Below are positions 47,522 to 50,974 of a stretch of 64,000 nt of DNA, in pieces. The translations under genes and the position numbers were made by a program. The notes below the pieces were generated by a model. That model was given only the letters and a program-made list of their open reading frames with translations, did not search any database and was not told where the DNA came from. The stretch is from an uncultured Gammaproteobacteria bacterium (GTDB lineage Bacteria; Pseudomonadota; Gammaproteobacteria; PS1; Pseudothioglobaceae). Positions within the stretch are counted from its first letter, which is position 1, and each line of letters opens with the position of its first letter. The stretch spans positions 1 through 64,000 of the forward strand of contig CAJXOB010000003.1 in NCBI GenBank assembly GCA_913057955.1, given 5' to 3'.

Positions 47522-48445
47522 ATGACTATTCATGATGCTCCAAAGTATATAACAGTTGATGAGTTTTCAATTGGGCAGCGCCTGGATAATTATCTAATTA
47601 AGCAGCTTAAAGGTGTCCCAAAGTCTCGCATTTACCGAATTATCAGAAAAGGCGAAGTTCGCGTTAATAAAGGTAGAAAAAAAGCAGACTATAAGCTTGT
47701 GTCTGAAGATATTATTCGAATTCCACCTATTAGAACCTCTACTGAAAAGGATATTAAGCCATCTGATGGACTTCTTAAGTTGCTTAATTCTTCAATTCTT
47801 TATGAGGATAAAGGCTTATTGGTGCTAAATAAGACCCATGGAATGGCAGTTCATGGGGGGAGTGGCGTCACTATTGGGATTATTGAGGCACTTAAAAGCC
47901 AATATAAAGAACCTATTGAACTTGTTCATCGACTTGATAGGGGAACATCAGGGTGCCTGATTCTTGCAAAAAAACGATCGGTCTTAAAATCATTTCATGA
48001 GCAGTTATTTCATCATCAACTGGAAAAGCGCTATATTGCACTTGTTAAAAATAGCTGGAGCAAGAAAAAACATACTATTGACGCGCCAATTTATCAAAAT
48101 TCAAGAAACAGTGTTATTGATGCAAAAGGAAAAGACTCATTAAGTCATTTCCACCCGATCAAAAATTTTCTTATGGATGATGAAAGTGCTTCATTGGTTG
48201 AAGTGGCTATAGAAACTGGAAGGACCCATCAAATTAGGGTTCACGCAAAACATGCTGGTCATCCAGTAGCCCAAGATGATAAGTATGGTGATCATAGTTT
48301 CGATCAGTTAATGAAAAAGAAGGGGTTGAATCGACTTTTTTTGCACGCTAAATCAATTGTTTTTACAAACCCAATTACTAATGAAATTCAAAAGGTAACA
48401 GCCCCACTGCCAAATGATCTTGAAGAATTTTTAAATAAACTATGA
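47522..48445 (+). CDS. rluC: 23S rRNA pseudouridine synthase RluC-type
   Basis: An S4 RNA-binding domain (QRLDNYLIKQLKGVPKSRI, about residues 20-80) precedes a RluA-family catalytic domain with the Asp in HRLDRGTSGCLILAK at about residue 140, and GRTHQIRVHAKHAGHPV. The track start at 47438 lies inside tatD; ATG 47522, four bases after the tatD stop, gives 307 aa and a normal N-terminus. The family modifies 955/2504/2580 in 23S rRNA (RluC) or related sites. Confidence 0.92.
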   Translation: MTIHDAPKYITVDEFSIGQRLDNYLIKQLKGVPKSRIYRIIRKGEVRVNKGRKKADYKLVSEDIIRIPPIRTSTEKDIKPSDGLLKLLNSSILYEDKGLLVLNKTHGMAVHGGSGVTIGIIEALKSQYKEPIELVHRLDRGTSGCLILAKKRSVLKSFHEQLFHHQLEKRYIALVKNSWSKKKHTIDAPIYQNSRNSVIDAKGKDSLSHFHPIKNFLMDDESASLVEVAIETGRTHQIRVHAKHAGHPVAQDDKYGDHSFDQLMKKKGLNRLFLHAKSIVFTNPITNEIQKVTAPLPNDLEEFLNKL

Positions 48446-49284
48446 ATGCATATATTCGCTTAATGAGGCTTGATAAGCCTATTGGGTCATTATTACTTCT
48501 ATGGCCAACCTATTGGGCTCTATTTCTAAGTGCAGATGGATGGCCTGATGTAGATATATTGGTCATTTTTACTTTGGGAGTTTTTATAATGAGATCTGCT
48601 GGGTGTGTTATTAATGATTTTGCAGATCGAAAAATTGATATGCACATTATAAGAACACAGGGAAGACCTCTTGCTACTGGAGAAATTTCGTCCAATTCCG
48701 CATTAGTATTATTTGGTCTATTATTACTGATTGCATTAGGCTTAGTTCTGCAAACTAATATCTTAACTATTAAACTGTCTTTAATTGCCCTTATGCTAGC
48801 AACTTTATATCCATTTACAAAGCGCTGGACTAATTTACCCCAACTAGTTCTAGGCGCTGCATTCGGAATGAGCGTGCCTATGGCTTTTAGTGCTCAAACT
48901 GGTGTGATACCTTTAACAGCTTGGCTAGTTTTTATTGCAACTCTAGTTTGGACTTTGATTTATGACACTTTTTATGCGATGGCAGATCGAGATGAGGATT
49001 TAAAGGTTGGAGTAAAATCAACGGCAATTCTGTTTGCAAAATACGATCAAATTATTATCACTTTATTGCAAATTTTACTAATTATTGTGTTTGTATTAAT
49101 TGGCAATACTTTCGATTTAGGGCTAATTTATGACTTTTCTTTGGTTGTTATTTTATTTTTTATGATTTACCATCAACTTTTACTAAAAAAACGCCAAAAA
49201 GAAGAATATTTTAAGGCGTTTCTTAGCAATAATTTCATTGGTATGACTGTATTCTTGGGGATTTTTCTTTCGGTAATCATCTAG
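48442..49284 (+). CDS. ubiA: 4-hydroxybenzoate polyprenyltransferase UbiA
   Basis: A 280-residue membrane prenyltransferase of ubiquinone synthesis. It has the Asp-rich motif NDFADRKIDMHIIRTQGRPL near residue 54 and the second Asp-rich region YDTFYAMADRDEDLKVGVKS near 174, with several hydrophobic helices. It attaches the polyprenyl chain to 4-hydroxybenzoate. It overlaps rluC by four bases. Ubiquinone points to aerobic respiration. Confidence 0.95.
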   Translation: MNAYIRLMRLDKPIGSLLLLWPTYWALFLSADGWPDVDILVIFTLGVFIMRSAGCVINDFADRKIDMHIIRTQGRPLATGEISSNSALVLFGLLLLIALGLVLQTNILTIKLSLIALMLATLYPFTKRWTNLPQLVLGAAFGMSVPMAFSAQTGVIPLTAWLVFIATLVWTLIYDTFYAMADRDEDLKVGVKSTAILFAKYDQIIITLLQILLIIVFVLIGNTFDLGLIYDFSLVVILFFMIYHQLLLKKRQKEEYFKAFLSNNFIGMTVFLGIFLSVII

Positions 49285-49369: not shown

Positions 49370-49396
49370 TTGACACCCTGTTTTTGTTACTATAAA
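49370..49396 (+). promoter_or_regulatory. promoter of first 72-aa membrane protein gene
   Basis: TTGACA (49370-49375) is followed at 15-nt spacing by TATAAA (49391-49396). The same pair at the same spacing precedes the paralogous gene, which supports function. The leader is about 50 bases with GGAGAG as ribosome binding site. Confidence 0.7.
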
Positions 49397-49405
49397 AAGT
49401 CCATC

Positions 49406-49425
49406 AATCAGCAAAAATGTTGATT
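49406..49425 (+). other. 5' UTR hairpin, first copy
   Basis: AATCAGC-AAAAAT-GTTGATT forms a 7-bp stem (one G-U pair) in the leader. A different but equally placed hairpin exists in the second copy, so structure rather than sequence may be kept. Confidence 0.4.
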
Positions 49426-49451
49426 ATCTTAAAAACAAATGGAGAGAAAAT

Positions 49452-49670
49452 ATGTTAAGTAATGTAACTGGTTGGATAAAAAAATTAACTGAAGCTGGTG
49501 TTGGTCTTGTAGCACTTGCAGTTGTTGTTCAAGTAATATTTGGTTCAAGTGCTTCATTCCTACCTGGTGATGTTGTTGCTAGGCTTACTGATATGATCGG
49601 CGCACTTGGTGGTGCTGGCTTAGTTGGTTTAATTACAGCAGGATTGTTGTATACGATCTTTTCTAAGTAA
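49452..49670 (+). CDS. 72-aa hydrophobic membrane protein, tandem copy 1
   Basis: A small protein of unknown family. A short amphipathic start (SNVTGWIKKLTEAG) is followed by a hydrophobic helix (about 16-32, VGLVALAVVVQVIFG), a polar turn (FLPGDVVARLTD) and a second hydrophobic segment (about 46-69), ending SK. No signal cleavage site is seen. Strong promoter, GGAGAG ribosome binding site and strong terminator suggest high expression as a monocistron. It is about 71% identical to the copy 206 bases downstream. It could be a membrane-organising or pore-forming peptide, but no function is assigned. Confidence 0.85.
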   Translation: MLSNVTGWIKKLTEAGVGLVALAVVVQVIFGSSASFLPGDVVARLTDMIGALGGAGLVGLITAGLLYTIFSK

Positions 49671-49686
49671 TACGTATTAACTCAAT

Positions 49687-49714
49687 AAAAAACCCGCCTT
49701 ATGGCGGGTTTTTT
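49687..49714. terminator. terminator of first 72-aa gene
   Basis: AAAAAACCCGCC-TTAT-GGCGGGTTTTTT, a perfect 12-bp stem with U-run, 16 bases after the stop. An identical copy follows the paralogue. Confidence 0.93.
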
Positions 49715-49791
49715 ATTATTTGAATCAATATTGGTAAATACATGTGTCTGTTGTACTAAAGCTAATTTTAGTTATCACGCACCTAGAAAAC

Positions 49792-49818
49792 TTGACATAG
49801 TGTTTTTGATACTATAAA
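49792..49818 (+). promoter_or_regulatory. promoter of second 72-aa membrane protein gene
   Basis: TTGACA (49792-49797) and TATAAA (49813-49818) with a 15-nt spacer repeat the layout before the first copy. The spacer shares GTTTTTG with it. The 90-odd bases upstream of the -35 differ, so the duplicated unit starts close to the promoter. Confidence 0.7.
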
Positions 49819-49830
49819 AAGTTTATTAAT

Positions 49831-49851
49831 CAGCCAGAGAGATTCTGGTTG
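49831..49851 (+). other. 5' UTR hairpin, second copy
   Basis: CAGCCAGA-GAGAT-TCTGGTTG forms an 8-bp stem with one G-U pair at the same place as the hairpin of the first copy, but with different sequence. Confidence 0.4.
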
Positions 49852-49875
49852 TCTTAAAACAAATGGAGAGAAAAT

Positions 49876-50094
49876 ATGTTAGATAATGTAATTGGATGGG
49901 TAAAAAAATTAACTGAAGTAGGCGTAAGTTTTATTGCGCTTGCAGTTGTTGTTCAAATAATTTTTGGAAGCCAGGCTGCATTCTTACCTGGCGATATTAT
50001 CGCTAGACTTACTGATATTATTGTTGGACTTGGAGCAGCAAACTTGGTTGGTCTAATTGCCGTTGGTTTGCTATATAAAATCTTTACTAAGTAA
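49876..50094 (+). CDS. 72-aa hydrophobic membrane protein, tandem copy 2
   Basis: Paralogue of the preceding small protein, with the same length and layout and about 51 of 72 identical residues. Most changes are conservative (Val/Ile, Leu/Phe, Ala/Val) in the hydrophobic parts. GWxKKLTE, ALAVVVQ and FLPGD are unchanged. The same leader end (CAAATGGAGAGAAAATATG) and terminator show a whole-unit duplication kept under selection. Function unknown; differing residues such as SQAA versus SSAS may affect assembly of a mixed oligomer. Confidence 0.85.
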   Translation: MLDNVIGWVKKLTEVGVSFIALAVVVQIIFGSQAAFLPGDIIARLTDIIVGLGAANLVGLIAVGLLYKIFTK

Positions 50095-50110
50095 TACATA
50101 TTAACTCAAT

Positions 50111-50138
50111 AAAAAACCCGCCTTATGGCGGGTTTTTT
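50111..50138. terminator. terminator of second 72-aa gene, shared with dapD
   Basis: Same perfect 12-bp stem as the first copy. A- and T-runs on both sides make it bidirectional, so it probably also ends the dapD transcript arriving on the other strand. Confidence 0.93.
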
Positions 50139-50158
50139 ATTTTTTGAAATAGATTGAG

Positions 50159-50974
50159 TTAAATTCCTCGAAGAAGTTCATTAATTCCAACTTTAGATCT
50201 TGTTTTGGCATCAACTTGTTTAACAATCACGGCACAATAAAGTGAATAGCTTCCATCTGCTGATGGAAGGTTGCCAGAAACTACAACTGAGCCTGCCGGT
50301 ATTCGACCATAGGTAACTTCACCTGTCATCCTATTGAAGATTTTTGTTGATTGACCAATATAAACGCCCATTGATATAACAGCGCCTTCTTCAACGATAA
50401 CGCCTTCAACTACTTCTGATCTAGCTCCAATAAAGCAGTTATCCTCTATTATTGTTGGACTTGCTTGTAAAGGCTCAAGAACTCCACCAATACCTACGCC
50501 ACCTGAAAGGTGAACATTTTTGCCAATTTGAGCACAAGACCCTACAGTAGCCCATGTATCAACCATTGTTCCAGAATCAACATATGCACCAATATTAACA
50601 TAAGATGGCATTAAAACCGTATTTGAGGCAATATAAGATCCTCTTCTAGCAGTTGCTGGAGGAACTACTCTAACACCTGACGCTTGAAACTCTTCAGCTG
50701 TGGTGTTTGCATACTTGGACGGAACTTTGTCATAGTACTGCGTAAAGCCAGATTGCAAGGGTACGTTATCTGCAAGCCTAAATGAAAGCAATACCGCCTT
50801 CTTTAACCATTCATTAACCTGCCAGTCACCGATACCTCTTTGTTCTGCCACTCTAGCTTTTCCTGAGTCGAGGAGATGGATAGCTTCATCAACAGCTTCT
50901 TTAAGTTCTTTGCTTGCAGAGTCAGGAGTAATGTGCGCGCGATCTTCAAATGCGGCTTCAATAATATCTTTCAT
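50159..50974 (-). CDS. dapD: 2,3,4,5-tetrahydropyridine-2,6-dicarboxylate N-succinyltransferase
   Basis: A 271-residue acyltransferase of lysine and peptidoglycan diaminopimelate synthesis. It has a left-handed beta-helix of hexapeptide repeats (about 95-230) with [23 protein letters not shown] and [22 protein letters not shown], both DapD hallmarks. The length is normal. It lies 55 bases after the ZnuC-like gene on the same strand. Confidence 0.96.

Follow-up and report, generated by a model that had tools for sequence, protein, structure and literature searches.

Introduction

Cyanophages carry hli and psbA to keep host function going. As is generally known, these genes are extra units between core genes of T4-like marine viruses and encode small or short-lived host membrane proteins that are multicopy in the hosts. 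The family of 72-aa membrane proteins described here is likewise a small host protein, multicopy in some hosts, whose gene stands as an extra unit between core genes of such viruses; it differs from hli and psbA in that its sequence is unrelated and its hosts are not known to be photosynthetic. T4 Imm (83 aa), whose gene is located near gp43 in T4, also belongs to a T4-like virus and is a small membrane protein. However, Imm has no sequence or profile similarity to the 72-aa family (hhalign probability 0.1 over 13 columns), its gene position differs, and to our knowledge it has not been described as a chromosomal gene with strong expression. Class II holins are similar to the family in size and in their two membrane helices, but no family match rose above noise, and the 72-aa family, unlike them, is a conserved cellular gene. 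Permuted (two-piece) tmRNA, which accompanies the gene in viral loci described below, is likewise encoded by Melnitz-like and other marine phages (PMC9004378). That paper describes a glutamine-riboswitch tmRNA, and searching its text for the terms "membrane protein" and "holin" gave nothing.

Here, we compare these systems with a locus in the window, by which we mean the whole 64,000-nucleotide stretch of DNA that was analysed. Our tentative reading is that the 72-aa family is common to aquatic bacteria and T4-like viruses, is strongly expressed in cells, forms in viruses a mobile cassette with a gene-specific leader and a permuted tmRNA, and serves either membrane upkeep or phage exclusion. 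If this is right, a small membrane protein without a name or an assigned function is widely carried by marine viruses and is also present in ordinary bacterial genomes.

Two complete transcription units between ubiA and dapD

The window genome (1.57 Mb, 79 contigs; G000:C3) belongs to the Thioglobaceae (SUP05/PS1-type). Among named organisms, Candidatus Pseudothioglobus aerophilus is the closest relative, with 100% identity for CDS 1. The locus consists of two monocistronic units (49370–49716 and 49792–50140), each with one gene for a 72-aa membrane protein, and has the following features.

48442–49284, + strand: ubiA-like prenyltransferase, upstream neighbour (name read from sequence)
49370–49396, + strand: promoter 1 (TTGACA 49370–49375, 15-nt spacer, TATAAA 49391–49396)
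49398–49451, + strand: leader 1 (5′ stem-loop 49406–49413/49418–49425; Shine–Dalgarno (SD) sequence GGAGAG 49441–49446)
49452–49670, + strand: CDS 1, 72-aa membrane protein P0001 (open reading frame (ORF), family HMM and AF2 model)
49685–49716, + strand: terminator 1 (14-bp stem with A/T flanks; −20.9 kcal/mol, z −6.6)
49792–49818, + strand: promoter 2 (TTGACA 49792–49797, 15-nt spacer, TATAAA 49813–49818)
49820–49875, + strand: leader 2 (5′ stem-loop 49831–49838/49844–49851; SD GGAGAG 49865–49870)
49876–50094, + strand: CDS 2, 72-aa paralogue P0002 (ORF; BLASTP against CDS 1)
50109–50140, + strand: terminator 2 (identical to terminator 1; −20.9 kcal/mol, z −5.8), facing the convergent dapD
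50159–50974, − strand: dapD-like acyltransferase, convergent downstream neighbour (ORF; synteny with relatives)

An earlier note on this DNA had described a tandem duplicate with strong expression signals. The duplicate is real, with 51 of 72 residues identical between the two CDSs (71%; BLASTP E = 4e-37), and both units have the TTGACA-15-TATAAA promoter, the GGAGAG SD and the same terminator. The units align over their full length, promoter to terminator; therefore, the whole transcription unit was copied in the duplication. Terminator 1 is likely bidirectional, given its A/T flanks. The note's description of the unit thus stands; what it lacked was the leader stem-loop, the wide bacterial spread and the presence in T4-like viruses.

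The promoter pattern TTGACA-N14..19-TATAA has three matches in the 64-kb window, two of which are promoters 1 and 2, and in the relatives analysed, 49 of 54 family genes have the same 15-nt spacer. A promoter scan found none in the window because it demands a 16–18-nt spacer. Each leader is about 55 nt long with the stem-loop at its start (folding z −4.2 for leader 1 and −3.4 for leader 2). Across 39 leaders of relatives, 97.4% of the stem cells were paired, with 12 double changes and two base pairs changed on both sides, and sliding one partner by 1–3 columns lowered the pairing to 14–58%. A model of this leader matched only these two genes in their own genome (leader 1, E = 7.5e-13; next match, E = 0.31). 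The Rfam scan of the window yielded only sub-threshold matches, mostly terminator-like. From this anatomy, we infer that each gene is transcribed on its own, is expressed at a high level and has an mRNA that is stabilised. A literature search on the expression or sequence of the 72-aa protein returned nothing; in the Thioglobus EF1 study, the most expressed protein was an S-layer protein (PMC6509183).

A predicted two-helix inner-membrane family

The AF2 model, built from a 31-sequence alignment, has helices at residues 2–30, 41–54 and 57–71 (pLDDT 88, pTM 0.56). Segments 2–14 and 40–53 are amphipathic (muH about 0.5) and segments 15–31 and 54–71 are hydrophobic, as the earlier note had read for the amphipathic N-terminus and the two hydrophobic segments. 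Over distinct family sequences, the net charge is −1.1 in the loop, +1.2 at the C-terminus and about zero at the N-terminus, so that a positive-inside topology draws its support from the loop and the C-terminus; these charges suggest that both ends are cytoplasmic. Residues Q27, F30, F36, G59 and L60 are invariant across 31 diverse members.

Scans of 31 members against the Pfam-A, NCBIfam, PHROGs v4 and PADLOC 2.0 HMMs found no family that fits. The best matches were weak and disagreed from member to member (Pfam PMP1_2, E = 6e-4; NCBIfam PRK13852, E = 1.4e-4; PHROG, E = 0.009; PADLOC, none). A PDB sequence search gave no consistent match, and Foldseek of the model against PDB and BFVD returned nothing. 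In agreement with the earlier note, which could not place the protein, the 72-aa protein represents a previously undescribed family of small, probably inner-membrane proteins. A match to the PH75 inovirus coat protein (E = 0.16–0.24) was rejected as a generic amphipathic-plus-hydrophobic similarity.

Distribution in cells and repeated doubling

Homologues were sought in related genomes, as the earlier note had proposed, and the family HMM was positive in 49 of the 83 genomes of the order of the window organism. It was also positive in 7 of 77 genomes of the Nitrospina phylum (Nitrospinaceae) and in 40 of 385 sampled Alphaproteobacteria (~10%), and the family is present in some Opitutales and in an Oceanospirillaceae MAG. 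Only 1 of 399 drawn Pseudomonadota was positive, namely the window genome itself; such patchiness argues against a general membrane need. By the same HMM, no member of genus group g2 and one member only of g4 have the gene; we take these small-genome groups to be mostly intracellular bivalve symbionts.

In Thioglobaceae, the gene order is tatD-rluC-ubiA-[gene]-dapD-(znuC)-polA (neighbour names read from sequence), and it is kept in L047, L048, L064 and L069. The ubiA and dapD flanks are also kept in L052 (a Bathymodiolus symbiont) and L074, where dapD is preceded by an additional ORF. At the ubiA/dapD locus of two g1 genomes with one copy (L029:1501–1719 and L031:1501–1731), a normal Thioglobus leader is followed by the gene for a divergent GGD/GGN-type protein; possibly, a foreign allele replaced the resident gene in place.

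Two or three copies occur in 21 of the 25 positive genomes of g1, and the other genera have one. Single copies are found in the g1 members G001, G019 and G026, in the other Thioglobaceae and in most Alphaproteobacteria and viruses. In G028 (L010:1501–2554), there are three tandem copies, the third of which is a near-copy of the first. The g1 paralogues are under purifying selection (mean pN 0.10/pS 0.39 and pN 0.13/pS 0.54), with pN/pS about 0.25 for both copies, and each copy has residues of its own that the genus conserves (NVTGW/QVIFG/AGLVGL versus NVIGW/QIIFG/ANLVGL). In the family tree (96 tips, 73 columns, with weak deep nodes), the pairs of g1, Nitrospinaceae and Reyranella-type Alphaproteobacteria cluster by lineage and not by copy; therefore, the doubling arose independently at least three times in bacteria. 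Cellular and viral branches interleave in this tree, and there are several viral branches.

Homologues in T4-like viruses

The family gene is present on at least 516 IMG/VR contigs. Because the viral loci were picked by similarity to the query and the contigs are fragments, the viral counts are minimum values and should not be read as frequencies. The contigs examined were mostly T4-like (gp43, regA, gp62, gp18, gp19 and nrdA/B; gp18, nrdA and nrdB named by reading of the genes). The neighbours of the 72-aa gene include clamp loader, RegA, Hsp20, tail tube, head closure and PhoH, and the DNA polymerase was closest to Synechococcus T4-like phages (51%). The gene occupies at least four slots: (i) gp19/gp18; (ii) regA/hsp20; (iii) nrdA/nrdB; and (iv) before an RNase H-like gene (queE/RNase H-like). 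On the largest viral contig (322,647 bases), the gene occurs twice.

A cultured relative lacks the extra unit at one slot: L177 reads regA-[gene-tmRNA-tRNA]-hsp20, whereas in Sf-CH5 regA is followed immediately by hsp20 with no insert. The family HMM had no match in Sf-CH5, Pelagibacter phage HTVC008M or T4. Searches by tblastn of cultured phages and a plasmid set gave no match, in most cases not even at E 10; low-complexity filtering probably masks queries of this kind, and the tblastn result was therefore not counted as absence. The three-phage HMM search was used instead. The viral gene thus shares two features with virus-carried auxiliary genes, namely cellular homologues and an extra unit without counterpart at the slot of a related phage; a third, the support of a host process during infection, is proposed below. 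Viruses took up the family gene repeatedly.

Two contigs assigned to bacterial MAGs look like T4-like phage: L093:2179–7834 (SP335 Gammaproteobacteria MAG), with the order nrdA-[72 aa]-permuted tmRNA-nrdB-glutaredoxin, and L089:293–898 (Rhodobacteraceae Water_Bin34 MAG).

Viral leader RNA and permuted tmRNA

One viral clade has another hairpin ahead of the gene, with AAACTAWTTTT and the SD after it (L108:2911–2966, L149:4945–5000, L181:4140–4195 and others). Its stem shows strong covariation, being 91.6% paired versus 68% in shuffles, with 22 double-change cells versus 8. We modelled this leader together with the SD, using 19 of the later matches for training; of the 52 matches of the model across 645 kb of viral loci, 50 lie directly upstream of a 72-aa gene. 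The AAACTAWTTTTWWAAYAAYA pattern alone may not be specific. The viral leader had no match in Rfam, and its model did not match the cellular leaders, so that the two leader hairpins may not be homologous.

A permuted tmRNA is located 52–452 nt downstream of the gene on the same strand in 21 of 106 viral loci (L149:5318–5635, L177:5320–5645, L108:3237–3554, L119:4105–4437, L121:5372–5681 and others). Many of the 106 loci come from contigs that are nearly identical to one another, and the counts should therefore not be taken as independent events. Only two tmRNAs were predicted elsewhere in the viral loci. Of the loci tested with Rfam RF04321, eleven had their tmRNA confirmed, the MAG contig L093 among them, and the tmRNA is sometimes followed by tRNA-Met. 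Permuted tmRNA is typical of Alphaproteobacteria, which hints at Alphaproteobacteria as the viral hosts. Marine phages are known to encode it (PMC9004378).

Proposed function

We propose, short of firm confidence, that the 72-aa protein is a self-associating, high-copy inner-membrane protein with a membrane or energy role that viruses sustain in infection. The protein would form a hairpin. Its amphipathic N-terminal helix would continue into the first of two membrane helices; beyond a periplasmic turn (F-x-G/P-G-D), another amphipathic helix would lead to the other membrane helix, which is short and rich in glycine, and both termini would lie in the cytoplasm. The stand-alone unit, with its promoter, 5′ stem-loop, strong SD and terminator, would give a large output of stable mRNA. 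The protein may then self-associate at high copy through contacts made by Gln27, which is invariant, and by the glycine face, and may support a membrane or energy function for which free-living aquatic cells have a large demand. Marine T4-like viruses would bring their own copy so that this function continues after host expression stops. The strong-looking cellular units, the repeated viral uptake and the dedicated viral leader together fit a sustained host function or phage exclusion. If so, the family would be either a non-photosynthetic counterpart to hli and psbA or a new superinfection-exclusion protein, and the gene-specific leader RNA and the tmRNA cassette offer two further experimental handles.

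Between these two, we favour the host function, though guardedly, and regard superinfection exclusion as its main rival, itself unlikely. In an exclusion or immunity role, the protein would block the entry of competing phage DNA, and bacteria would keep it as constitutive protection. Such a role suits a small, stand-alone two-helix membrane protein of T4-like viruses that moves between slots, is encoded on so many viral contigs and has several viral branches in the tree, and it also suits the absence of the gene from g2 and nearly all g4. However, the dissimilarity to T4 Imm argues against it, neither a Pfam superinfection family nor a PADLOC model matched, and the Thioglobaceae gene is located at a conserved chromosomal locus and not in a defence island.

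The earlier note had also suggested a two-subunit assembly, in which the two copies would form an obligate membrane complex. The copy-specific residues held across the genus and the recurrence of pairs in Nitrospinaceae and Reyranella speak for it, but the many single-copy relatives, even within g1 (G001, G019 and G026), make an obligate two-subunit complex improbable, and the independent origin of pairs in three bacterial lineages weakens it further. Dosage or subfunctional divergence fits the pairs at least as well.

Capture by bacteria of a class II holin-like lysis protein is very improbable. Size, the two hydrophobic helices and a single weak match to a holin in PHROGs (E = 0.36, one member) recall a holin, but a strongly promoted, doubled holin would kill the cell, no Pfam holin family matched, the cellular genes are under purifying selection and in synteny, and the viral slots seen lie in replication, nucleotide or tail regions and not beside recognised lysis genes, although many neighbours are unannotated. 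A tandemly repeated type I toxin–antitoxin membrane toxin, which the small hydrophobic protein, the tandem arrangement and the structured leader might recall, is the least credible reading, given that promoter scans of the window showed nothing like an antisense promoter opposing the genes in their vicinity and that the protein has 72 residues, two helices and conserved polar residues, and is conserved over phyla.

One further viral neighbourhood was observed on a T4-like contig, L142:6033–9044, where three consecutive DNA-methyltransferase-like genes adjoin the 72-aa gene.
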